NCBI RefSeq assembly: GCF_032484785.1
Contig: NZ_JAUETR010000001.1
Coordinates: 310,001 to 374,000 of the forward strand
Direction of reading: 5' to 3'
DNA length: 64,000 bases
From: Bradyrhizobium sp. SZCCHNS1050
GTDB taxonomy: Bacteria > Pseudomonadota > Alphaproteobacteria > Rhizobiales > Xanthobacteraceae
The notes beneath the pieces are model-generated. The model saw only the letters and a program-made list of their open reading frames with translations, was not told where the DNA came from and did no database searches. Positions 2,686-16,701 of this stretch are shown here, piece after piece. The position numbers and the translations under genes are program-made. The stretch's first letter is position 1. The number at the start of each line of letters is the position of its first letter.

Positions 2686-3006
2686 TCAGGCCTGACGCTC
2701 GGGGGTGGAGACGACGAGGCCGTCGAGTTCGTCGGAGACCTTGATCTGGCAGGAAAGACGGGAATTCGGCCGGACATCGTAGCCGAAATCGAGCATGTCC
2801 TCTTCCATCGGGGTCGGCGGGCCGACCTTCTCGCGCCAGGCTTCGTCGACATAGACATGGCAAGTCGCGCAGGCGCAGGCGCCGCCACATTCGGCCTCGA
2901 TGCCGGGAATGGCGTTACGGATCGCCGCTTCCATCACGGTCGCGCCGTTCTCGATCTCAACGGTTCTGGATTCGCCGGTATGGTCGACAAAGGTGATCTT
3001 GGCCAT
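2686..3006 (-). CDS. [2Fe-2S] ferredoxin, adrenodoxin/putidaredoxin type
   Basis: The 106-residue ferredoxin has cluster ligands C40, C46, C49 and C86, spaced C-X5-C-X2-C-X36-C as in adrenodoxin-type ferredoxins. The acidic partner-binding stretch [10 protein letters not shown] and the C-terminal '[10 protein letters not shown]' are typical of the vertebrate-type/putidaredoxin class. Such proteins feed electrons to cytochromes P450, Rieske oxygenases or FeS assembly. No P450 or oxygenase gene is adjacent, so the acceptor is unknown; the FNR at 968-1996 could reduce it (inference). It is probably cytoplasmic, with no signal peptide. Confidence 0.92.
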
Positions 3007-3089
3007 GTGTGCTCGTGCTGCGCAGGGAATGAGGTCGGGCTGTCCTATAACGGACCGCTCCGCTCCGCGCTAGTGCTGCCGCCGGCCGC

Positions 3090-3464
3090 TCAGGCCGCGC
3101 CGAGCATCTCCGAAATCGCCGCGCGGGCCTGCGCGATCGCCGTGCCGAGCCAGGCCAGCGCATCGGCCGGGTCGCCCGCCCGCAGCGCCGCTTCGAGCCC
3201 TTCCGCCGCGTCGGCGACGTCGAGCGCGCCGACGGCGCGGGCCGAGCCCTTCAGCGTGTGGGCGACGGTGGCAGCATCCTCGGGCAGCACCTGCAACCGC
3301 TCCAGCAGGCGGACGGCCTGGCTGGAGAACATGGCGAGCACCTCACGCTCGAGCGCGCTGTCGCCGAGCGTCATCCGGCGCAGCAGGTCCAGGCTGATCG
3401 GCCCGTCGTCGGGAACCAGCGGGGGCGAGGGCATCCATTCGATCCGTGAAAGGTCGGGAATCAT
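3090..3464 (-). CDS. HPt (histidine phosphotransfer) domain protein
   Basis: The 124-residue protein is essentially one HPt four-helix domain. The phospho-acceptor histidine (H69 from this start) lies in 'AHTLKGSARAVGA'. HPt proteins relay phosphate between hybrid kinases and response regulators; no kinase or regulator gene is adjacent. The start is uncertain: an in-frame GTG at 3518 would add 18 residues, but the family-like sequence begins at MIPDLSRIEW. The gene is divergent from the giant coiled-coil gene. A TTAA-tgcattg-TTAC sequence, a near match to the CtrA consensus, lies about 63 bp upstream of this start. Confidence 0.82.
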   Translation of the reverse strand: MIPDLSRIEWMPSPPLVPDDGPISLDLLRRMTLGDSALEREVLAMFSSQAVRLLERLQVLPEDAATVAHTLKGSARAVGALDVADAAEGLEAALRAGDPADALAWLGTAIAQARAAISEMLGAA

Positions 3465-3526
3465 GGCGGCAATCCGGTCCGGCGGGCGCGCCGCGCGCGC
3501 CTGTGGTAAGCCAAGCACGACAATGG

Positions 3527-3848: not shown

Positions 3849-6800
3849 ATGGCGAACACTCCGAAAAAGGTCAAAGACCCGACTGAAGTTGCGCTGTCCG
3901 CCATTCAGGAGGCTTTGAACATCAGCGATTCGTCCGCGCCCACGGACTCGCAGAGCTCGGTCCACGCCGACGGGGCTCCGCCCGTCATGCCGAACGGCGT
4001 GTCCAGTCTGGATTCGTTCGACTCGCGTCCGGGCATCGACCGCAGCAGCCTTGACGAGATCGAGCCGCCGCCGCTCGCCGCGCGCCGCCCGGCCAACGAC
4101 GACCGCGAGACCATCGGCCAATTGCTGCAGGCGATCCAAAAGGGCCGCCCGTCACGCGGCGTCTACACGCTGGCAACCGCCTTTGCAGGCATCTGGATCG
4201 TCGGCTGCGTCCTGCTGACCATCGGCTTCCTGCCCGCTTTGCAGACCCTGATCGGCCAGAGCGGCGGCGTGCTGGTCATGGCAGGCCTCGCCGCAGTGTT
4301 CTTTGCCCCGGTTCTGCTGTTTTATTTCCTCGCGAGCCTCGCTTGGCGCGGCCAGGAGCTGCGCATGATCGCGCAGTCGATGGCGCAGGTCGCGATCCGA
4401 TTCTCCGAGCCGGAAGGCGCCGTCAGCGATTCCATCGTGACCGTCGGCCAGGCCATCCGCCGCGAGGTCGCGGCGATGGGCGACGGCGTCGAGCGCGCGA
4501 TCGCGCGTGCCGGCGAGCTCGAGATGCTGGTCGCCAACGAGGTTGCGGCGCTCGAGCGCGCCTACAGCGACAACGAGGTCCGCATCCGCGCCCTTCTCCA
4601 GGACATCGCCCATCAGCGCGACAACCTCGTGGGCCAGGCTGAGCAGGTCCGGAGCGCCATCTCGGGCGTCCAGATCGACCTTCGCCACGACATCGCGCTG
4701 ATCTCGGACGCGATCGCCTCGCGGGTCGACGAGGTCGCCAAGAGCATCACCGGCGCGCTGGAAGAGCGCGGCGCCCACATCACGGCCGCGCTCGGCAACG
4801 CCGGCGACAACATGATCCTCGCGCTCGGCGAGCGCGGCGGCGATCTGCTCGACCGGCTCGAAGAGGCCAGCGCCGAGACCACCCGCGCCGTGCTCGACGC
4901 CTCGGAGCGGCTCACCACCAGCCTCAATTTCAAGACCGGCCACGTCCACGACGAGTTCGCCGACCTGTCGGACCGAGTCCACGAGATGCTCAACGAGCGC
5001 ATCGACCGCATCACCAGCGAGTTCGAGCAGCGCACGGCGGCCATCGTCGACGGCATCTCGGTGCGAACCGAGCAGGTTCACGACCAGCTCAAGGCGTCCG
5101 GCGAGTCCCTCCTGCTGGAGCTCGAGCTGCGCAGCGGCGATCTTGTCACCAAGATCGACGAGGCGAGCCAGCGCATGTCCGGCCACATCGTCACGTCAGG
5201 CGAGAAGGCGAGCGAGTCGCTCGATGCGACCGTCAATTCGCTGGTCGCCAAGGTCGTCAGCCAGACCGAGAGCACGCACGACACGCTGTCGATCCAGATC
5301 AGCGCCTTCGACGAGCTGGTGAAGAACCAGGGCACCGAGCTCGCCGAGCGCTTCGCACGCGACAGCTCGACGCTGGGCGCGCTGATCACCCGGCACATCA
5401 CCGAGTTCGACCGCACGGTGAAGACCTATGGCGGCGAGATCGTCGAGCGCATGGGCCAGCGGACCCAGGAAATCTCCGACAATCTCAAGTCCTATGTCGA
5501 TACGTTCGATACGCGGCTGTCGTCCAACAGCGGTGAGATCACGGCGACGCTGGATCAGCGGCTGAACCAGTTCGAGACCAATCTGCAGGCCCGCATCACC
5601 ACCCTCGACACCTCGCTCGATGCGAAGATCAAGACCTTCGACGACAGCGTCGAGGGCCGCCTCAAGTCGCTCGAGGAGAACTTCGACAACCGCGCGACCT
5701 CGGTCACCTCGACGATCGAAGGCCGCCTCGGCACTCTGTCCAACTCGCTGACCGACGGCGCTGCCCAGGTGCTGCACGCGATCGACTCGCGGCTGACCGT
5801 GCTGACCTCCTCGCTGACCGATGGCTCGGCGCAGGCGATCCAGTCGATCGATTCCCGCCTCAACATACTGACCTCCTCGCTGACTGACGGCACCGACAAG
5901 GCGCTCGAAGCGATCGATCAGCGCATCCACAGCCTGTCGAACATCATCGACGGCCGCAGCTACGAGCTGACCGAAGCCGTCACCGCGCGCTTCCAGGACA
6001 TCCATCAGGGCATCGAGACCCGCGTCGGCTCGATCGCCAAGGACATCGACCATCGCGTGTCGCAGTTCGAGGACCTGCTCGGCTCGCGCGTCGAGGCCGT
6101 GGCCGGCCGCATCGAGAGCAGCGGCCGCCAGGCGAGCGACGAACTGATGACCCGCGCCGAGCTGCTGTCCGCCAGCATCAAGTCGCATGTGGAAGATGCG
6201 GAGCGGGCGCTGACCAACCTCGTGGTCAACACCAGCGAGACCATCCAGACCGGGGCCCGCTCGGCACAGCAGGCGCTGCTCAACGTCTCGACCGACGTCG
6301 GATCGCAGTTGAAGAACACCTCCGCCGAGGTCGAGCGTGCCCTGTCGAACGCAGGCAGCAGCGCGGCCGAGGCCGTCCTGACCAGTGCGCGCGAGGCCCA
6401 GGCCACGCTGGTCGCGGCCTCCGGCGAGACCGCCGACCAGATCAAGTCGCTGTCGGCCGACGTCGAGCGCACGCTCACGGCGGCAGGCTCGACCACCGCA
6501 GCCTCGATCCTCGCCGGTGCGCGCGAGGCCCAGAACACGCTGGTGTCCGCCTCCTCCGATGCCGCCAACCACGTCAAGTCGCTCGCCGTCGACGTCGAGC
6601 AGGCGCTGACGGCCGCCGGCTCGGCCACGGCAGCCTCGATCCTCGCCGGTGCACGCGAGGTCCAGAACACGCTGGTGTCCGCCTCCTCCAACGCGGCCGA
6701 GCACGTGAAGTCACTCGCAGCCGACGTGCAGCGCTCGCTGACCAGTGCCGGGACGGAAACCGCCGAAGCCATCACGGCGGGCGCCCGTGATGCCCAGCAT

Positions 6801-9461
6801 GCCCTGCTCGCGGCATCGAGCGAAGCGGCCGAACAGGTCAAGGCGCTGACTGTCGACGTCCAGCGCTCGCTGTCGATCGCGGGGACGACCACCGCGGAAA
6901 CGATCACCGGCGGCGCCCGGGAAGCGCAGAGCACGCTGATCAGCGCTTCGTCCGAAGCGGCCAATCACGTCAAGTCGCTGGCGGCCGACGTCGAGCGCAC
7001 GCTCGCCGCGGTCGGAACCAGCACGGCCGCAGCGATCGTCGACAGCGCCCGCGACGTCCAGTCGAAGCTCGTCACCGCCTCGACAGAAGCAACCGAGCAC
7101 GTCAAGTCGCTGGCCGTCGACGTCGAGCGGACGCTGTCGTCCGTCGGCGCCGATACCGCGACCTCGATCCTCAACAGCGCGCGCCAGGCGCAGATGTCGC
7201 TGACCGCCACGTCGGCCGACACCGCGGCCACCCTGGTCGGCAGCGCACGCGAAGCCCAGGCGGTGCTGACGACGACCACGACCGAGACGGTCGCGGTGAT
7301 CGTCGGCGGCGCGCGCGAGGCACAGAACCTGCTGACCGCCACCTCCACCGACACCGCGGGCCAGCTCAAGGCGATGTCGTCGGAGATCGAGCGCGTCATC
7401 AATTCCGTCGCGGCGAACACCACCGATGCGATCCAGAGCAGCGCGCTCAATGCGCAGAGCGCGCTCGTCGCCGCCTCCAACGAGGTCTCCACGCGGGTCA
7501 AGTCGACCTCGACCGAGATCGAGCGCTCGGTGCTCGCCGCCGGCAACTCGTTCGGCTCGGCCATGACCGGCAAGACCGACGAGATCGTCACCTATGTGCA
7601 GCAGCAGAGCGAGCGGCTGTCGCAGATGCTCGACGGCAAGCGCGGCACCCTTGTGGAGGCACTCAACTCGAAGACCAACCAGCTCACGATCGAGATCGAT
7701 CGCGTCACCACCGACGCGCTGAAGGCGATCGAGGTCCGCGGCCAGAACTTCGCCCAGAGCGTCAATGGCAACGGCTCCGAGGTCGCCCGCACCATCACCT
7801 CGGCGGGAGAGCTCGCGACCACCGCGATCACCAAGTCGCTCAAGGAGCTGGAGCAGGCCTCGCGCGCGGCGATCGAGCAGTCGCGCCAGGTCTCGGTGGC
7901 TGCGGTCACCGAGATGCAGGAGACGAGCAAGATCCTGCGCACCGATACGGTCGCCCTGTTCGAACGTCTGCGCGAGGGCAACATCCTGCTGCAGGAGGTC
8001 CTGACCGGCGCCCACGACAACCTCAACTCGCTGGAGCGGGCGCTGGTCACCCGGGTGGCCGACTTCGTCACCGCGATGAACGACGTCACCGCACGCAACG
8101 GCACCGCGACGCAGACGCTCGAGGACCAGCTCAACGTGTTCAACTCCAAGACGTCGCGGGCGCTGGAGGATCTCAACTCGCTGTCCGGCCAGTTCGACGC
8201 GCATGGCAAGGCGCTGATCGAGGCGGCGGCCATCGTCGAGCAGAGCAACCGCGATGCGACCGTCTCGATCTCGGATCGCAAGACGACGCTGGAATCGCTG
8301 GTCACCACTATCGATCTGCGCACCGCCGATCTCGACCAGCGTCTGACGCGCTTCACCACCCTGCTCGACGAGTCCTTGGCGGCCGCCGAGGAGCGCGCCC
8401 GCGACATCGCCCGGGTCGTGGCGGAAACGGCGGGGGCCGGCTCGACCGCGCTCAGCCGCCAGTTCGAGGCCATCCGCGCCAACGCGGAGGAGGAACGCCG
8501 CCTCACCACGTCGCAGATGCAGGAGATCTACCAGCAGAGCACGCAGGAAGCCGATGCGATGTTCAAGCAGTCGGCGGAGAAGTTCGCCACGCTGGTGTCG
8601 AGCATGAAGCAGATGACCGCCGAGATGCATCGCGAGCTCGAGGCGACGCGCAACGAGCTGCGCCGCGGCGTGCTGGAGATGCCGCAGGAGGCCGCCGAGA
8701 GCACGGCGCAGATGCGCAAGGTCATCGTCGACCAGATCGAGGCGCTGGCCGAACTCAACCGGATCGTCGCGCATCACGGCCGCGGTCTCGACGTGGTCAG
8801 CGCGTCGCGTCCCGCCGCGGTCGCGGCGCCAGCGGCCGTGATCCGTCAGGAAGAGCCGATCGTCGCCGCAGCCGTCGGCGGCCGGCCGGACATGCGCCTG
8901 CGCGAGCCGGCTGCGACCAGCGTCGCCAACCTGCCGCCGCCGGATCTCGGCATGCAGCCGCCGGCCCCGCCGCCGCAGCCACGCCGGGTCGAGGCGCCGC
9001 CGATGGGTCCGGTCGCCGATCAGCGCAGCGACAACTGGCTGTCCGACCTGCTCAACCGGGCCGACAACAGCACCGCCGGCCAGCCCCAGCCGCCGCGTGG
9101 CCGCGGTCCGGCGCAGCAGTCGGGCAATCCGCTGGAGTCGCTGTCGCTCGACATCGCCCGGCTGATGGACCGCAATCTCGCGGCCGAGATGTGGGACCGC
9201 TACCAGCGCGGCGAGACCAAGGCGTTCTCCAAGCGTCTCTACACCCCGGCCGGCCAGAAGGCGTTCGACGAGGTCGCCCGCAAGTACCGCGCCGACCGCA
9301 CCTTCAAGCAGACGGTGGACCGCTACATCACCGAGTTCGAGCGGCTGCTCGACGAGGTCGCACGCGACGACCGCAATCCGCAGGCGCTGCGTGCCCAGCT
9401 CACCTCGGAGACCGGGCTGGTCTACACCTTGCTCGCCCACGCCGCCGGAAGGCTGGCGTGA
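3849..9461 (+). CDS. giant membrane-anchored helical repeat protein, GPR/RgsE-like (polar growth candidate)
   Basis: The product has 1870 residues. A charged, Pro/Ser-rich N-terminus of about 100 residues precedes two membrane segments (about 106-128 and 140-163). About 1500 residues of helical, apolipoprotein-like sequence follow. Repeats are visible: 22-residue units (DSRLTVLTSSLTDG..., from residue 646), and seven 44-residue units from residue 804 to 1111 (each starting R-x-x-Q and containing VKSLxxDVExxL). Two 22-residue half units and further 44-mers come next. After a Pro-rich linker (about 1640-1755), a conserved globular C-terminus (about 1760-1870) includes 'EMWDRYQRGETKAFSKRLY'. Architecture and size match the Agrobacterium Growth Pole Ring protein and Sinorhizobium RgsE, which are needed for unipolar growth (known for those proteins; assignment here is inference). 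ATG 3849 is preferred over a TTG at 3786. Confidence 0.75.
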   Translation: MANTPKKVKDPTEVALSAIQEALNISDSSAPTDSQSSVHADGAPPVMPNGVSSLDSFDSRPGIDRSSLDEIEPPPLAARRPANDDRETIGQLLQAIQKGRPSRGVYTLATAFAGIWIVGCVLLTIGFLPALQTLIGQSGGVLVMAGLAAVFFAPVLLFYFLASLAWRGQELRMIAQSMAQVAIRFSEPEGAVSDSIVTVGQAIRREVAAMGDGVERAIARAGELEMLVANEVAALERAYSDNEVRIRALLQDIAHQRDNLVGQAEQVRSAISGVQIDLRHDIALISDAIASRVDEVAKSITGALEERGAHITAALGNAGDNMILALGERGGDLLDRLEEASAETTRAVLDASERLTTSLNFKTGHVHDEFADLSDRVHEMLNERIDRITSEFEQRTAAIVDGISVRTEQVHDQLKASGESLLLELELRSGDLVTKIDEASQRMSGHIVTSGEKASESLDATVNSLVAKVVSQTESTHDTLSIQISAFDELVKNQGTELAERFARDSSTLGALITRHITEFDRTVKTYGGEIVERMGQRTQEISDNLKSYVDTFDTRLSSNSGEITATLDQRLNQFETNLQARITTLDTSLDAKIKTFDDSVEGRLKSLEENFDNRATSVTSTIEGRLGTLSNSLTDGAAQVLHAIDSRLTVLTSSLTDGSAQAIQSIDSRLNILTSSLTDGTDKALEAIDQRIHSLSNIIDGRSYELTEAVTARFQDIHQGIETRVGSIAKDIDHRVSQFEDLLGSRVEAVAGRIESSGRQASDELMTRAELLSASIKSHVEDAERALTNLVVNTSETIQTGARSAQQALLNVSTDVGSQLKNTSAEVERALSNAGSSAAEAVLTSAREAQATLVAASGETADQIKSLSADVERTLTAAGSTTAASILAGAREAQNTLVSASSDAANHVKSLAVDVEQALTAAGSATAASILAGAREVQNTLVSASSNAAEHVKSLAADVQRSLTSAGTETAEAITAGARDAQHALLAASSEAAEQVKALTVDVQRSLSIAGTTTAETITGGAREAQSTLISASSEAANHVKSLAADVERTLAAVGTSTAAAIVDSARDVQSKLVTASTEATEHVKSLAVDVERTLSSVGADTATSILNSARQAQMSLTATSADTAATLVGSAREAQAVLTTTTTETVAVIVGGAREAQNLLTATSTDTAGQLKAMSSEIERVINSVAANTTDAIQSSALNAQSALVAASNEVSTRVKSTSTEIERSVLAAGNSFGSAMTGKTDEIVTYVQQQSERLSQMLDGKRGTLVEALNSKTNQLTIEIDRVTTDALKAIEVRGQNFAQSVNGNGSEVARTITSAGELATTAITKSLKELEQASRAAIEQSRQVSVAAVTEMQETSKILRTDTVALFERLREGNILLQEVLTGAHDNLNSLERALVTRVADFVTAMNDVTARNGTATQTLEDQLNVFNSKTSRALEDLNSLSGQFDAHGKALIEAAAIVEQSNRDATVSISDRKTTLESLVTTIDLRTADLDQRLTRFTTLLDESLAAAEERARDIARVVAETAGAGSTALSRQFEAIRANAEEERRLTTSQMQEIYQQSTQEADAMFKQSAEKFATLVSSMKQMTAEMHRELEATRNELRRGVLEMPQEAAESTAQMRKVIVDQIEALAELNRIVAHHGRGLDVVSASRPAAVAAPAAVIRQEEPIVAAAVGGRPDMRLREPAATSVANLPPPDLGMQPPAPPPQPRRVEAPPMGPVADQRSDNWLSDLLNRADNSTAGQPQPPRGRGPAQQSGNPLESLSLDIARLMDRNLAAEMWDRYQRGETKAFSKRLYTPAGQKAFDEVARKYRADRTFKQTVDRYITEFERLLDEVARDDRNPQALRAQLTSETGLVYTLLAHAAGRLA
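5784..5915 (+). repeat. 66-bp tandem coding repeats (22-residue units)
   Basis: Two adjacent 22-residue units (D-S-R-L-x-x-L-T-S-S-L-T-D-G...) are encoded in tandem, with a diverged copy just upstream (GRLGTLSNSLTDG). The 22-residue period is that of amphipathic apolipoprotein-type helices. They lie inside the giant gene. Confidence 0.75.
6258..7445 (+). repeat. 132-bp tandem coding repeats (44-residue units)
   Basis: Seven consecutive 44-residue units run from 6258 to 7181, two 22-residue half units from 7182 to 7313, and another 44-mer from 7314 to 7445; a degenerate copy follows. Each unit keeps R-x-x-Q at its start, xxLVxASSxxAxHVKSL in the middle and AxxxxAxxxL/I near its end. Units 2 to 4 are also close at DNA level, implying recent duplication or conversion. 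Confidence 0.9.
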
Positions 9462-9478
9462 TGGGAGCGAATGGGAGA

Positions 9479-9506
9479 GTAGCGAGTAGCGAGTAGCGAG
9501 TAGCGA
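9479..9506 (+). repeat. 7-bp tandem repeat (gtagcga x4)
   Basis: Four perfect copies of gtagcga lie 18 bp after the giant gene's stop. An inverted, related repeat lies at 9712-9755, so the intergenic spacer is flanked by opposed copies. Confidence 0.85.
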
Positions 9507-9543
9507 AGGGTTCAGTAGAACCAGCGCTGCGACAAGAAGAACA

Positions 9544-9576
9544 AGCGGAGGCCACGAGGCCTCCGCTTCGCGTTTA
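9544..9576. terminator. bidirectional hairpin terminator
   Basis: A perfect 11-bp stem (aagcggaggcc / ggcctccgctt) with a 4-nt acga loop sits between the convergent giant gene and the mlaD gene. The T tract is short (cgcgttt), so it may be a weak intrinsic terminator. It could serve both strands. Confidence 0.7.
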
Positions 9577-9711
9577 GAGATGCAATGAAGGCGCTTTCGA
9601 CTTTGGCCGTTCGGGCCCCGCATCGCCGGCACAACGGCGTGCGACGTGCTCCGTAGCCAGCCAGCAGCGGTGGATAGCGACAGCGATGGAGCGCAGTCCG
9701 CTGCCGCGCGC

Positions 9712-9763: not shown

Positions 9764-10630
9764 TCACCGCCGCCCCGTCGCCGCCGGCGCGGGCTGCGAG
9801 GCCTGGGCGTTGCTCGGGCTGGCGTTGCTGGCCCCGAACAGGACCCGGGTCGGATTGCGGTCGAAATTGTTCACGGCGCGGCTGATGTCGGACAGCGTGC
9901 GCCGTCCATCGGCCATCAGCGCGCCGGAGCGCTTGTCCAGATCCTCGGCGAGCTCCCGGATCGATTTCACCGTCAGGAACAGTTCGCCGCCATCCTTGCC
10001 GCCGGCCAGCGTGTTGAGACCGAGCATCAGGGTATCGGCCTTGCCCATGATGCCGTCGACACGGCTCATGACGCCATCGATGCGCTCGGAATTGCGGGCC
10101 AGTGACTGGGTGAACACCTCGAGATTCTTGATCGAGTTCTTCACGGCGTCCTGGTTGTCCGCGACCACCTTATTGATGTTCTGCAAGGTGGCTCGGATCG
10201 CTTCGGTCACGTCCTGCAGCCGGGTCGGATCGGCACGCAGCACCGGCACGCCATCCTCGTCGAGCGGCGGCGGCGGCGCAGCCTCCTCGCCGCCCTTCAG
10301 CGAGATCGCGGCGACGCCGGTCAGGCCCTGGAACTCGAGCCCGACCAGGGTGTCCTTGCGGATCGGCGCATTGTTCTCGACCATCGCCAGCGCGACGACG
10401 CGGCGCGGATTGTCGAGCTTGACCGAGATGACCTCACCGACCCGGATACCATTGAAGTTGACGCTGCCGCCGTTGCGCAGACCCGCGGCCGGCCCCTCGA
10501 ACACGACCCGCAGCGGGCTGCGCTGCTTGGTCGTGTGCAGGCTCTGAAACCAGAGGACAAACCCGATCGCCGCGGCAATCACTGCCAGCGTGAACGACCC
10601 GATCAGGACGTAATTCGCCCGCGTTTCCAT
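9764..10630 (-). CDS. mlaD: MlaD-family substrate-binding protein (MCE domain)
   Basis: The 288-residue protein has an N-terminal membrane anchor (about residues 6-27) and one MCE domain (about 37-115), including 'GLRNGGSVNFNGIRVGEV' and 'LVGLEFQGLTGVAAISL'. A long helical C-terminal part follows, with a Pro/Ala tail. In Mla/Tgt/Pqi systems this periplasmic subunit forms the hexameric lipid channel of an inner-membrane ABC transporter. The start METRANY has a GGAG-type ribosome site (GGAGTTGGTA). It is the last gene of a permease-ATPase-MlaD operon, with about 150 bp between the ATPase and this gene. No mlaC or mlaA is present nearby. Confidence 0.9.
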   Translation of the reverse strand: METRANYVLIGSFTLAVIAAAIGFVLWFQSLHTTKQRSPLRVVFEGPAAGLRNGGSVNFNGIRVGEVISVKLDNPRRVVALAMVENNAPIRKDTLVGLEFQGLTGVAAISLKGGEEAAPPPPLDEDGVPVLRADPTRLQDVTEAIRATLQNINKVVADNQDAVKNSIKNLEVFTQSLARNSERIDGVMSRVDGIMGKADTLMLGLNTLAGGKDGGELFLTVKSIRELAEDLDKRSGALMADGRRTLSDISRAVNNFDRNPTRVLFGASNASPSNAQASQPAPAATGRR

Positions 10631-10781
10631 TACCAACTCCGGTACCGGCACGTCGCGGCGGTCATCCGGCCCCCGCTTCCGTGCACTGTCGGTTGGCGCC
10701 GGACAGCGGCACCCACCCCATCAACTTTGTCGCGGCAGTCCCCACTCCCGCTCACAAAAATCGTCCCTGGGGCGCGTCGCG

Positions 10782-11552
10782 CTACCCCATCACGGCTCGG
10801 GCACGCTTGCCGTGGAAATACTGTCGGAGCCACGGATGTTCCGAGGCCTGCATGTCGGCCATCGATCCCGCGGCGATAATCTTGCCGTCGCCCAGCACGG
10901 CGATGCGGTCGCACGCCGTATACAGGCTGTCGAGATCATGGGTTACCATGAAAACCGTCAGTCCCAAAGTGCGCTGCAGGGTCCGGACGAGCTCGTCGAA
11001 ATCGCCGGCGCCGATCGGGTCGAGCCCCGAGGTCGGCTCATCGAGGAACACCAGCTCCGGATCGAGCGCGAGCGCGCGTGCCAGCGCCACGCGCTTGATC
11101 ATGCCCCCCGACAGCTCGCTCGGGAAACGATCAGCAACATCGGGCCGCAATCCGACCATCACCAGCTTTGCGACCATGATCTCGTCGAGCAGACGCTGCG
11201 AGACCTTGAGATACTCCCGGACCGGGAACTGGATGTTCTGCCGCACGGTGAGCGAGGAGAACAACGCGCCCTGCTGGAACAGCACGCCCCAGCGCCGCTC
11301 GACGGCGCGGCGGCCGGCACGATCGGCGGCGTCGAGATCGACGCCGAACACCTCGATGTTGCCCGACAGCTTCGGCACGAGGCCAATGATGGTGCGCGTC
11401 AGCACCGACTTGCCGGCGCCGGATGGACCGACGAAGCCCAGGATCTCGCCGCGCTTGACGTCGAGGTCGAGTCCGTCGAGCACGCGCGTCTTGCCGAATT
11501 GCACGGTGACGTCACGCACGCGGATGATCGGATCGGAGACCTCCTGCATCAT
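10782..11552 (-). CDS. mlaF: Mla-type ABC transporter ATP-binding protein
   Basis: The 256-residue ATPase has Walker A GPSGAGKS, Q-loop FQQGALF, signature LSGGM (variant, followed by IKRVALARAL), Walker B LVFLDEP and H-loop THDL. The variant signature and the 'DPIGAGDFDELV' region match MlaF/Ttg2A-type lipid transporters rather than sugar or amino acid importers. It powers phospholipid movement through the MlaE permease across the cell envelope. The start overlaps a double ATG; the permease stop lies 6 bp upstream, so translation is probably coupled. Confidence 0.92.
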   Translation of the reverse strand: MMQEVSDPIIRVRDVTVQFGKTRVLDGLDLDVKRGEILGFVGPSGAGKSVLTRTIIGLVPKLSGNIEVFGVDLDAADRAGRRAVERRWGVLFQQGALFSSLTVRQNIQFPVREYLKVSQRLLDEIMVAKLVMVGLRPDVADRFPSELSGGMIKRVALARALALDPELVFLDEPTSGLDPIGAGDFDELVRTLQRTLGLTVFMVTHDLDSLYTACDRIAVLGDGKIIAAGSMADMQASEHPWLRQYFHGKRARAVMG

Positions 11553-11558
11553 CTCAGT

Positions 11559-12701
11559 TCACATCCCGACCGCGGCGAAGAAGATCGCGAACACGCCGTC
11601 CATCACGATGACGAAGAAGATGCCCTTGACCACCGACGAAGTGGTGTGGCGCCCCAGCGACTCGGCACTGCCCTGCACTGCCAGTCCTTCGACGCAGGCG
11701 ACGATCCCGATCACCGCCGCCATCACCGGCGCCTTGAGCAGCCCGACCTTGAAATGATCGATCGAGATCGCATCGCGCAGGCGCAGCAGGAAGGCCTCGG
11801 GATCGACGCCGCCATAGAACCAGGCCACCAGCCCACCGCCATAGAGCGCGGCGATGTCGCCGAGGAAGGCCAGGATCGGCAGTGCGATCACCAGCGCGAG
11901 CATGCGCGGCAGGATCAGGACCTCGATCGGATCGAAGCCCATTGTGCGCAGCGCGTCGATCTCCTCGCGCATCTTCATCGAGCCGAGCTCGGCCGTGTAG
12001 GCGCTACCCGACCGGCCCGCGATCATGATCGCCACCAGCAGCACGCCGATCTCGCGCAGCACCAGCACGCCGAGCATGTCGACGACGAAGATGTCGGCGC
12101 CGAACCTTCGGAAATGGAAGATGCCCTGCTGAGCGATGATGCAGCCGATCAGGAAGGTGATCAGCACGATGATCGGCACCGCGCGCCAGCACACCTGCTC
12201 GAGATGATGGATGGTCGAGGTCAATCGGAAGCTGCGGGGATGAATGAGGACCCGGCCGCTGGCGACGATCACGGCGCCGAGCATGTCGATCAGCGCGGCG
12301 ATCGTGCCGAAGATGCCGGCGACACTGAGGCCGATCTGGCCGAGCATGCCGGTGATGGTCACCATCGTCGCGTCGCCATTGGGCGCGGTGCTGACGCGTC
12401 GAACCTCGTCGACCAGGCTGGCGTAGTTCGCAGAGAGCCCATCGATCCGGACCTCGACGGTTCCGGTCGTGAAGCTGCGGCGCAGCCGCTCGATCAGCCA
12501 GGCGCCGAACGTGTCGAGCTTGGAGACTTGGGAGACGTCGATCGAAACATCGATCTTCTTGCCGGCGAGTTTTTCGGCATCGGCGACGAGCCGTTCGAGC
12601 GACGGCGCAAAGGACGCAGTCCAGGCGCCGGTCGCGCGCAGCGACAGCGCGTTGCCATCGCCACTGCGCTGCAAATCAGGGCCGCCCTTCACGACGGCCA
12701 T
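11559..12701 (-). CDS. mlaE: MlaE-family permease with N-terminal STAS-like domain
   Basis: The 380-residue permease combines an N-terminal STAS-like segment (about residues 20-105, including 'VDVSQVSKLDTFGAWLIERL'-type sequence) with an MlaE permease of five to six membrane segments. Family motifs are 'MIAGRSGSAYTAELGSMKM' and 'EEIDALRTMGFDP'. In E. coli the STAS protein MlaB is separate; here it is fused, a known variant in alphaproteobacteria. It is the first gene of the operon. The ATG start at 12701 is followed directly by MAVVKGGPDL. Confidence 0.92.
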   Translation of the reverse strand: MAVVKGGPDLQRSGDGNALSLRATGAWTASFAPSLERLVADAEKLAGKKIDVSIDVSQVSKLDTFGAWLIERLRRSFTTGTVEVRIDGLSANYASLVDEVRRVSTAPNGDATMVTITGMLGQIGLSVAGIFGTIAALIDMLGAVIVASGRVLIHPRSFRLTSTIHHLEQVCWRAVPIIVLITFLIGCIIAQQGIFHFRRFGADIFVVDMLGVLVLREIGVLLVAIMIAGRSGSAYTAELGSMKMREEIDALRTMGFDPIEVLILPRMLALVIALPILAFLGDIAALYGGGLVAWFYGGVDPEAFLLRLRDAISIDHFKVGLLKAPVMAAVIGIVACVEGLAVQGSAESLGRHTTSSVVKGIFFVIVMDGVFAIFFAAVGM

Positions 12702-13846: not shown

Positions 13847-15015
13847 AACGACAGGCTTCGGTGCGCGATCCACATCAGGACGCCGCCCGCTCCGGCCATC
13901 GCGGCCATCACGTAGTAGACACCGGGTCCATAGGCCGCATAGACCGGCCCAGAGAGGGCCGATGCCGCCGAGCCGACCACGCCGCTCGCAGCCGCATAAT
14001 AGCCCTGCCCGCGCGCCGTCAGCTGCGCCGGCACTTGGCGGACCAACAGCCCCATGGTTCCAACCAGGGTCAGCCCGAAGGTGAAGCCGTGACTGATCTG
14101 GACCGCGGCGAGCCCACCCGCATGGGGCTCCTGGGCCGTGAGGCTCCAGCGCAGCACGGCCGCCATCGCGCCGATCATGACCAGGCTCGCGGGCGCCAGC
14201 GTGAACCGGGGCGACAGGGCGAACACGACGATCTCGGCCAGCACGCCCATGGTCCAGAGCCAAGCGATGGTCAGCCCGCTGAAGCCCTGCGCCTTCCACT
14301 CGATGGCGGAGAACGTGTAGTAGGCCGCATGGCTTGCCTGGATCAGCGCCGAAGCGGCGATGATGCAGAGGAAGCTCGGATTGCCCAGCAGACTGCGCCC
14401 GTCCCGGGCCAGGCCGGCGCCATGCGGCAGCGGCGGCAGCGCCTGCAGCAGCAGGCTGCTTGCCGCACCGCACAGCGCGACCGAGACGATGATCCAGATC
14501 AGCTCGGACGACGGCGCGAAGTCGACCAGCCCGCCGCACAGCAGCGTTCCGGCGATGAATGCGGCCGATCCCCACAGCCGCAGGCGACCGTAGTTCAGGC
14601 CATAGCTCATCACGCCACGGAGCGCATAAGCGTCCGTCAGCGGGACAACGGGTGTCCAGAGGCAGCAGGTTGCCACGTAGACCAGGAATACCAGCCAGGG
14701 TTCGCGCTGGAAGGCAAGAGCCACAAAGCCCGATGCCGTTGCGAAGGTGGTCAGCCGCATCGCGGCGCGCAGGGCCTGCCGGCGCTCGGCAACCGCGGTG
14801 ATCAGCGGCAGGACGGTGAAGCGGGTTACGGCGGGAACCGCAACGATGACGCCAATCCATGCGGCATCCAGCCCGATCGCCCGTAGCCATACGGGAAAGA
14901 ACGGCAGATGCGTGCCCGAGAGCACGAACACAGCGCCATAGAACAGCCCCAACCCGTCCGCGAATCGGCGCGACAATACCGGCGATATGGTGGAGATTTG
15001 TCGGGACAGTGGCAT
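13828..15015 (-). CDS. MFS transporter, HcaT/phenylpropionate-type (MFS_1_like)
   Basis: The 395-residue protein has 12 predicted membrane segments. Its N-terminal signature 'GLFYGAVFVLSGTHLPFFPVWL' is characteristic of the HcaT-like branch of the major facilitator superfamily. E. coli HcaT is a putative 3-phenylpropionate permease; the substrate here is not deducible. The start MPLSRQIST at 15015 is preferred to a long upstream extension that is hydrophilic and antisense-like. The gene is divergent from the Ala/Pro-rich gene (76 bp between starts) and convergent, overlapping, with the epimerase. Confidence 0.85.
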   Translation of the reverse strand: MPLSRQISTISPVLSRRFADGLGLFYGAVFVLSGTHLPFFPVWLRAIGLDAAWIGVIVAVPAVTRFTVLPLITAVAERRQALRAAMRLTTFATASGFVALAFQREPWLVFLVYVATCCLWTPVVPLTDAYALRGVMSYGLNYGRLRLWGSAAFIAGTLLCGGLVDFAPSSELIWIIVSVALCGAASSLLLQALPPLPHGAGLARDGRSLLGNPSFLCIIAASALIQASHAAYYTFSAIEWKAQGFSGLTIAWLWTMGVLAEIVVFALSPRFTLAPASLVMIGAMAAVLRWSLTAQEPHAGGLAAVQISHGFTFGLTLVGTMGLLVRQVPAQLTARGQGYYAAASGVVGSAASALSGPVYAAYGPGVYYVMAAMAGAGGVLMWIAHRSLSFQPHNA

Positions 15016-15090
15016 CAATTCAATTGCGATTCGATCAATATCATGGTGATCGTTATGCCAACGCGCAGCAATGTGCGCGATAGGTTTGCC

Positions 15091-16701
15091 ATGGTCGATG
15101 AAGTCTTCGCCCTCTCGCCGATATCCGCCCGTGCGGCTCAGCCGAACGAGGCCGATTACGAGGCGATCCGCGACGCCTTCATGGAGACGTCCCGAGGCCG
15201 CTGGTTCCTTGGCGAATACGCCAAGCGCAACCGCAATGCCGACACCAGCATGGTGCTCGACGCGGTGGCCCGCATCGAGCATGCGCTGGCCTCACAGCGT
15301 CAGCAGCAGCAGGAGTTCGAGCAGGCCGACAGCAAGGCACTGCCCGAAGCGCTGGCCGCGATCCGCGCCACGGTCGAAGACGCCGCACTCGCCGCCGCCA
15401 CTGCGGTCGACAGCATGGCCCTCGAGCAGAACCTGGCGCCGGTGCGCAAGGGCATCCGAATCATCAAGGAAATTTCCTGGCGCTGGCGCGAGATCGGTGC
15501 GGACTCGCGGATCTGCGACCTGATCGATTCACAGGTCACGTCGATCGAGGCCGCCTGCGACCAGCTTGCGTGCGCCGACCCCAAGGTCGCGCTGCTTGCG
15601 GCCTTCGAGATCATCAAGACGCGGCTGAAGGAGTTCGACGCGGAGAAAGCAAGCATTCCGCCCGCGGCTGACGAGATCGAACCGGCGACCGAAGCTGCGG
15701 CCCCGCCGACACCCGATGTCGCATCGGGTCCGACTGCGGCGGCGACGGTCTCGGCTGAGCCACAGGTGGCTCCGGAGCCGCAGCCCGTGCCGGAACAGAT
15801 GGAGGCGGCCCAAGCCGGGCTTGAGATGACCATTCCGCTCGTTGCCGCAGTGGCCGCGATCGAATCGGTCGAGACATCCTCCGGCGCTGATGCTGTGATC
15901 ATGGCGGCTGCAGCGGTTGAGGCCAGGATGGTCGACACCGCCGCTTCGGCGGTGGTGCAGCCCCCGGAAGCTGCGACCGAGCCGTCGGTGGACGAAGCCC
16001 TGCTCGAGATCGAGCAGCACGCCGCGGCGGCCCTGGATGACGCCGTCGCCGCAGAAGCCCACGACGAAGCCATCCTGGAATTGGTCGCGGCGGAGATGGG
16101 TGCCCCCGATCCGATCGACGATGAGGAGTTCAGCCGGGCCAGGACGCTCGGCTTCGACATTGAGGAGCCGACCTCGGTCGACGACGACATCGTCGCGAGC
16201 TTCAGCGAGACAGCGCCGTCGGAGCCGGATCTCGTGCTGACCACGGCAGAAGCCCCGGTTGCCAGCGCGGCGCCGGCTCCCGCTGCGCCCACGATGTCGG
16301 CTCCGCCGATGTCTTCCCCTCCGATGCCGGCCCCGCCCGCGGCGGCCCCGCGCATGGCCTCGCCTGCAGCCCCGGCGCCGGTCCCCAGCGTGCCCGTATC
16401 GCCACCGCTTCCGGAGGCGATCACCATCGAGACCCTGGCCGCCGTGGCGGCTGCGGTCGCAGCTCAATCTCCCGCAGCGGCCCCGAAGGCCGACGTTGCG
16501 CCGATCCAGCAGGTCCGCCCGACCGCCGCCGCGGCTCACAGCACCAGCGCGTCCGCGATGCCCAAGCCTGCCTACGAGCCGTCGCTGGGATCGACGCTGC
16601 TGTCGAACGGCCTTCTGCAGCGGCCGCAGGCACCCGCCAACGACTCGTTGGCGCCGATCCGTCGCATGACCCAGCCTGAGAAGATCGCATTCTTCTCGTA
16701 G
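15091..16701 (+). CDS. unrecognised Ala/Pro-rich protein with conserved N-terminus
   Basis: The protein has about 536 residues. The first 190 are ordinary helical sequence ('FMETSRGRWFLGEYAKRNRN', 'RKGIRIIKEISWRWREIG'). The rest is Ala/Glu-rich and then Pro/Met/Ala-rich (SAPPMSSPPMPAPPAAAP), probably disordered. A short conserved-looking C-terminus 'LAPIRRMTQPEKIAFFS' ends it. There is no signal peptide or membrane segment. I do not recognise the family. In-frame ATGs at 15043 and 15055 would add 16 or 12 residues; 15091 has AGG upstream. A role as a scaffold or regulator with a disordered linker is only a guess. Confidence 0.7.
   Translation: MVDEVFALSPISARAAQPNEADYEAIRDAFMETSRGRWFLGEYAKRNRNADTSMVLDAVARIEHALASQRQQQQEFEQADSKALPEALAAIRATVEDAALAAATAVDSMALEQNLAPVRKGIRIIKEISWRWREIGADSRICDLIDSQVTSIEAACDQLACADPKVALLAAFEIIKTRLKEFDAEKASIPPAADEIEPATEAAAPPTPDVASGPTAAATVSAEPQVAPEPQPVPEQMEAAQAGLEMTIPLVAAVAAIESVETSSGADAVIMAAAAVEARMVDTAASAVVQPPEAATEPSVDEALLEIEQHAAAALDDAVAAEAHDEAILELVAAEMGAPDPIDDEEFSRARTLGFDIEEPTSVDDDIVASFSETAPSEPDLVLTTAEAPVASAAPAPAAPTMSAPPMSSPPMPAPPAAAPRMASPAAPAPVPSVPVSPPLPEAITIETLAAVAAAVAAQSPAAAPKADVAPIQQVRPTAAAAHSTSASAMPKPAYEPSLGSTLLSNGLLQRPQAPANDSLAPIRRMTQPEKIAFFS

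Follow-up and report, generated by a model that had tools for sequence, protein, structure and literature searches.

The giant gene at positions 3849..9461 on the forward strand of the window (the whole stretch of 64,000 nucleotides from Bradyrhizobium sp. SZCCHNS1050 that was analysed) raises the question of which family its product belongs to, and of how the very long repeat region of this product should be understood. The frame is open over the whole interval, stop codon included, and encodes the 1870 residues given in the initial annotation. The mechanical ORF opens further upstream, at TTG 3786; ATG 3849 is the conserved start, and many among the 121 listed homologues share the motif MANxPKK.KDPTE there. 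Hydrophobic segments were located at residues ~104-136 and 133-168 with 19-residue hydropathy windows, and the two N-terminal membrane segments proposed earlier (residues ~104-165; 4158..4343, +) also appear as helices in an AlphaFold model. They are followed by a conserved juxtamembrane segment (residues 166-275; 4344..4673, +), which lies within a stretch 36% identical to Agrobacterium GPR and whose profile served as our N-terminal anchor. The helical region then extends to residue 1650, and its C-terminal portion (residues 1338-1650; 7860..8798, +) contains the C-terminal anchor (residues 1571-1650). A proline-rich linker (residues ~1651-1760; 8799..9128, +) leads to a C-terminal domain (residues 1761-1870; 9129..9458, +) recognised by its profile and by homology to GPR. 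The protein matches the apolipoprotein profile PF01442 with 185.8 bits (E = 8.8e-55; cut-off 90).

We compared the protein with GPR of Agrobacterium fabrum C58 (Atu1348). The reference was the C58 protein that carries the C-terminal domain; it has 2115 codons from its ATG, which is the published length of GPR (PMC8262873). Similarity was found at the membrane end (residues 73-309, 36.1% identity over 252 aa, E = 7.7e-41) and at the C-terminus (residues 1620-1869, 38.6% over 267 aa, E = 2.1e-41). The initial annotation had tied its GPR/RgsE assignment to homology in these two regions, and it is present in both. The two proteins share two N-terminal membrane helices (published for GPR), a giant PF01442 region (171.6 bits in GPR), a low-complexity linker and the C-terminal domain, as well as divergent Hpt and ferredoxin neighbours. 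They differ in total length (2115 aa in GPR against 1870 aa), and their rods give long alignments that are only ~20-21% identical. According to PMC7327166, RgsE of Sinorhizobium meliloti (SMc00190) is homologous to GPR, has 2,089 aa and contains as many as ten apolipoprotein domains; the likeness of our protein to RgsE is drawn from this account.

The neighbouring genes agree with this picture. On the reverse strand lie a divergent Hpt-domain gene (3090..3518; PF01627, 2.4e-9) and a 2Fe-2S ferredoxin gene (2686..3006; PF00111, 1.3e-13). Our synteny count covered gene frames of at least 2400 bases with enough flanking sequence. The Hpt gene was found in 65/66 near loci, in 36/40 from other groups (opposite strand in 34) and in 5/5 loci of the Agrobacterium genus, and the ferredoxin gene in 65/65, 39/40 and 5/5, respectively. 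Both stand on the strand opposite to gpr everywhere, save two in each set of other groups. Together with the mlaDFE-type genes downstream, this Hpt-ferredoxin / gpr / mlaDFE neighbourhood (2686-3518, 9764-12701) is conserved over much of the order.

Sequence and locus together identify 3849-9461 as the gene orthologous, in Bradyrhizobium, to those for Agrobacterium GPR and Sinorhizobium RgsE; the demonstration is for GPR, and the membership of RgsE follows PMC7327166. The conserved C-terminus claimed at the outset is borne out, since the domain occurs in 389/397 genomes of the order (136/137 genera; 39/39 of the Agrobacterium-type genus). This makes the family nearly universal there. RgsE homologues have been reported across all families of Rhizobiales (PMC7327166); the family is already described, and the gene is an expected member of it. 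No protein annotated as GPR was found among the matches listed by the protein searches (120 of 424 in one of them). Among the 80 best loci for the C-terminal profile, the top named hits were from Bradyrhizobium sp. SSBR45G and B. aeschynomenes, in keeping with a Bradyrhizobium genome. Spurious similarity is common among coiled-coil-rich proteins, and the giant protein does have weak matches, below cut-off, to ZorA and SpiroCoCo profiles. However, it is extremely improbable that this is an unrelated coiled-coil protein resembling GPR in layout only, because the homology lies outside the repeats at both ends, the protein has a single match in its own genome, and the locus is conserved. A likeness to ZorA of the Zorya system (cf. 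PMC11890865) was rejected, as the best NCBIfam ZorA score was 21 bits against a cut-off of 190. A second match to the C-terminal domain exists in some genomes of the order (nine were named), and in two of these the frames have 448 and 476 aa.

We then looked at the repeats themselves. Self-comparison of residues 781-1250 at lag 44 gave 2.21 BLOSUM units per position (maximum 0.19 in 300 shuffles at any lag of 10-139). The array of seven 44-residue units and two half units described in the initial annotation was recovered at residues 791-1142 (6219..7274, +), with the full units at 791-1098 and the 22-residue halves at 1099-1142, and two weaker 44-residue units follow at residues 1143-1230. The DNA of the gene carries tandem repeats of 66 and 132 bases, including one of period 132 at 6390-7135. 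Over a longer stretch that includes the array, every eleventh position is I, L, V, M or F 99 consecutive times, over the 1089 residues 249-1337 (4593..7859, +). The longest such run was 11 in 300 shuffles and 9 in 3,891 other frames of at least 150 aa in the loci. In the window, the best run in any other frame was 15, in a 973-aa antisense frame (6711-9632, -) that overlaps the giant gene and probably owes its existence to high G+C and to the repeats.

Hydrophobicity in residues 249-1337 peaks at a period of 3.665 residues, and the phase at 11/3 stays between -38 and -20 degrees across nine successive 110-residue windows from residue 300. The basic unit is 11 residues, of which 22, 33 and 44 are multiples, and the 44-residue array is part of one register. 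The 22- and 44-residue repeats noted earlier are real, but the extent of more than 1500 residues given for them was too wide, since the register ends at residue 1337 and only a weaker helical period near 3.6 continues from 1338 to ~1610. In C58 GPR the phase drifts slowly (best period 3.658), and the longest run in a single register is 64 units against 99 in Bradyrhizobium. Across 278 proteins of the family the run has a median of 62.5 units, a minimum of 11 and a maximum of 158.

Does the length of this rod follow any rule? Anchor profiles matched 268 N-terminal and 299 C-terminal ends, and 262 proteins with both made up the first set. A larger set comprised 278 distinct rods whose anchors reached scores of 60 and 40 or more. 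Between the conserved ends, rod length varies about fivefold in these 278 proteins, from 533 to 2635 residues. Scanning the rod lengths for periods from 2.5 to 60 gave a peak at 3.67, that is, 11/3 residues. The periodicity of rod lengths at 11/3 was strong (R = 0.752 for 278 proteins and 0.624 for 138 distinct lengths), whereas that of linker lengths was negligible (R = 0.059 for 277 proteins and 0.032 for 62 distinct lengths), and the rod at period 7 gave only 0.041 and 0.013. Among 57 mutually dissimilar representatives the periodicity was weaker than in the whole set, yet it remained above the null (R = 0.499 at the rod period, against a maximum of 0.376 in 5000 jittered sets). Rod lengths modulo 11 also occupy minority classes.

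Length differences between relatives tell the same story. We counted a difference as a whole number of turns if it was 0, 3, 4, 7 or 8 modulo 11, and we used disjoint pairs, which reduce shared ancestry among the rod comparisons and do not remove it. In the 99 disjoint closest pairs, the rods differed in length in 58, of which 49 were multiples of 11 and all 58 were whole turns. The linkers of the same pairs differed in 75 cases, with 3 multiples of 11 and 26 whole-turn differences (whole-turn share, rod versus linker, Fisher's test, p = 1.4e-17). The rule was looser in 136 less strictly chosen pairs: 61 of 94 rod differences were multiples of 11 and 82 were whole turns, so that 12 broke the rule, while linkers gave 8 multiples of 11 and 39 whole turns out of 109. 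Aligned gaps of at least 3 residues in the 99 pairs were multiples of 11 in 91/100 cases in the rod and in 0/71 in the linker and C-terminus. Repeat alignment could bias such gap counts, and the length differences were therefore recounted without alignment, as given above. Since length changes in evolution are mostly whole turns, both ends of the rod keep their rotational phase. The initial annotation had suggested a length-tunable ring or tether; tunable length is supported as evolutionary variation, mostly by whole helical turns (278 proteins and close pairs).

This rule may be explained in part by the way new lengths arise. DNA was available for 28 pairs, in which the inserts of 11, 22 and 44 residues mostly resembled their neighbours (0.53-0.92, against background medians of 0.42-0.45); the Bradyrhizobium gene itself has the 66- and 132-base tandem repeats. 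Because the inserts look like tandem duplicates, mutation alone supplies multiples of 11, and the whole-turn rule could be a mutational by-product of unequal exchange between repeats of 33, 66 or 132 bases, with no selection on phase. We regard this as not very likely. Where the rods differ by something other than a multiple of 11, the difference nevertheless amounts to whole turns in 9/9 cases among close pairs (chance 2.6e-4) and in 21/33 among looser pairs (p = 0.005). Gaps of one or two residues number 0 in the rod, against 180 in the linker and C-terminus of the same 99 pairs, and the periodicity persists among the 57 dissimilar proteins. The remaining whole-turn steps and the missing small gaps thus suggest selection on phase. 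New rod lengths would accordingly come from tandem duplication of 11-residue units, for which there is support at the DNA level, and changes that break the phase would be selected against.

What kind of structure could be under such selection? The PF01442 match suggests one answer, which was also proposed by the authors of the GPR study (PMC8262873): the repeats would be truly apolipoprotein-like, with separate amphipathic segments lying on membrane or lipid and organising the lipids of the growth pole, possibly in concert with the Mla-type transporter encoded next to gpr. What links the rod to apolipoproteins A-I, A-IV and E is the PF01442 match, together with solved chains of A-I and A-IV to which it has weak sequence similarity (E = 1.1e-6 at best). 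The genes of this phospholipid-transport-type operon lie convergent to gpr on the reverse strand: mlaD-like (9764..10651; PF02470, 2.3e-12), an mlaF-like ABC ATPase (10782..11552; PF00005, 1.2e-30) and an mlaE-like permease (11559..12701; PF02405, 1.3e-70). The mlaD gene is found downstream in 53/63 near loci and 14/19 loci of other groups (13 convergent), but in 0/5 loci of the Agrobacterium genus, each with a flank of at least 4.5 kb. It was not found in the downstream flank fetched for three Nitrobacter loci, four Afipia, Rhodopseudomonas infernalis or these five Agrobacterium-genus loci, nor in the 5 kb downstream of gpr in C58. Adjacency to mla genes is thus suggestive of lipid transport and not universal.

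Apolipoproteins A-I, A-IV and E have 11/22-residue helical periodicity punctuated by prolines, and they are far shorter. The rod of the GPR type is almost without proline: the Bradyrhizobium protein has only residues 188 and 1612 within 186-1640, so proline-punctuated segments are absent from it, and the family has 102 prolines in the 284,391 residues of 262 inter-anchor segments. Its hydrophobic stripe is narrow, about three positions in eleven. In the family profile, built from proteins with runs of at least 15 units and with position a aliphatic by construction, position h is 71% aliphatic and 3% charged, and position e is 27% aliphatic and 2% charged. Separate lipid-binding segments would also need neither one register over 1089 residues nor a phase mostly kept from end to end. 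On this evidence the apolipoprotein reading seems unlikely.

The narrow stripe (a, h and partly e) and the near absence of proline point instead to a coiled coil or bundle. Positions a, e and h form the core of hendecads, and the 11/3 periodicity of the GPR/RgsE rod is shared with hendecad stalks such as tetrabrachion. To our knowledge such stalks are much shorter than 99-158 units, and the GPR/RgsE rod may rank with the longest hendecad coiled coils in nature. The rod-length rule was not found among the paper titles listed on hendecad and right-handed coiled coils or on the growth pole ring; a survey of hendecad families by Martinez-Goikoetxea and Lupas (2023, J Struct Biol) may already list the GPR/RgsE family. 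AlphaFold modelling of the membrane end and the start of the rod gave membrane helices followed by long helices (pLDDT 69.7, pTM 0.23), with a possible break near residues 358-365 at modest confidence. The C-terminal domain was modelled as helical (mean pLDDT 62 over 160 residues, pTM 0.50); the model had no fold match (best PDB match E = 1.4), and the best E of its profile against PDB sequences was 0.24. Hendecad coiled coils are described as hard targets for AlphaFold (PMC11676326).

We therefore consider it likely that this GPR/RgsE orthologue forms a membrane-anchored, phase-locked scaffold rod for the polar cell-wall machinery, its localisation and function being putative. The two membrane helices would anchor the protein in the inner membrane and leave the remainder in the cytoplasm, as the published topology of RgsE suggests. 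The middle forms a single helical stretch of great length, with a hydrophobic stripe that recurs every 11 residues, or three turns, in register for 99 units, and it would be built as an 11-residue-repeat coiled coil or bundle. Such a rod might fix both the distance and the angle between the membrane anchor and the C-terminal domain and, judging from GPR/RgsE genetics, might act as a scaffold of polar wall synthesis in a cell that lacks MreB. More tentatively, GPR and RgsE could be rotationally indexed molecular rulers, each one uninterrupted 11-residue-repeat helix, confined in its evolution to whole turns because the angle between anchor and C-terminal domain would have to stay the same within a bundle of such proteins, and this bundle would set the geometry of the growing pole. 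The length rule is a quantitative rule for a key organiser of polar growth, whose rod spans a fivefold range of lengths with helical phase mostly kept.

The size of the rod bears on this proposal. A helix rises 0.15 nm per residue, so that 1,700 residues would span ~255 nm, and the distance between the conserved ends would be ~80 to 395 nm in the family and ~195 nm in the Bradyrhizobium protein. The authors of the GPR study calculated 600 nm for 1,700 extended residues, and argued from foci of 50 nm that the protein must fold back (PMC8262873). That phase is mostly kept speaks for a continuous rod rather than for lipid-binding domains that fold back.

Published deletions of GPR do not simply follow phase, which counts against the phase rule if the sizes given are correct. 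The slow phase drift of C58 GPR with its longest run of 64 units, the 12 rule-breaking differences among looser pairs and the possible helix break near residues 358-365 weigh on the same side. The A-IV-1cc deletion still complements well in one assay, and the similar-sized A-IV-4cc deletion interferes strongly (PMC8262873). If the 20 aa given in that paper holds, the A-IV-1cc deletion is ~164 degrees out of phase. The small deletions are put at 20 residues and also at 413-433, 413-434 and 1,100-1,120, with spans from 20 to 22 (PMC8262873). Deletions of whole domains, of 263 and 346 residues if the coordinates hold, would both be out of phase (PMC8262873). The coordinates of domains A-IV-1 and A-IV-4 are swapped between the Results and the Methods of that paper.

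Rgs proteins and MreB have been stated to be mutually exclusive (PMC7327166). No MreB was found in the Bradyrhizobium genome by a search with profile PF06723, which gave three weak matches; the two best were DnaK and FtsA, and the third scored 27 bits. However, MreB was present in 11/91 genomes of the order tested, and all 11 also carry the C-terminal domain, which tempers the published exclusivity. Outside the order, all 23 genomes tested matched MreB, although in one the match was only partial, being cut by the end of a contig. For the genomes whose frames were read, we compared MreB with run length: none of 31 MreB carriers (11 in the order, 20 outside) had a run above 40 units, against 28/48 MreB-less genomes of the order. 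The runs of the 11 carriers in the order were 5-40 units. In a quick tree built from both protein ends (64 rows), these carriers fell together in a single supported clade; its 18 proteins all have short runs, and 7 of them come from MreB-less genomes. Since the carriers fall into one clade and only 5 independent pairs exist, the comparison gives no independent support for a link between the long rod and loss of MreB, and we rejected it (sign test unable to reach 0.05; median p = 1).

Relatives outside the order indicate how the long register may have arisen. The C-terminal domain was found in 110/289 genomes of a sample of the class, four of them from the order of Bradyrhizobium itself. Five of 20 loci outside the order keep both end anchors (the C-terminal one weak in two) and the hpt and mla neighbours, and their frames of 727-1007 aa have runs of 4-10 units only. 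The longest runs among the 20 loci were 25 and 18. Because these relatives keep the ends and the neighbours with short runs, the long register looks, in this small sample, as if it had been elaborated from an older and shorter protein encoded at that locus.

Further downstream of the mla-type genes lies a 597-aa Ala/Pro-rich frame (14908-16701, +) without a Pfam match, and partly similar stretches occur in related loci.
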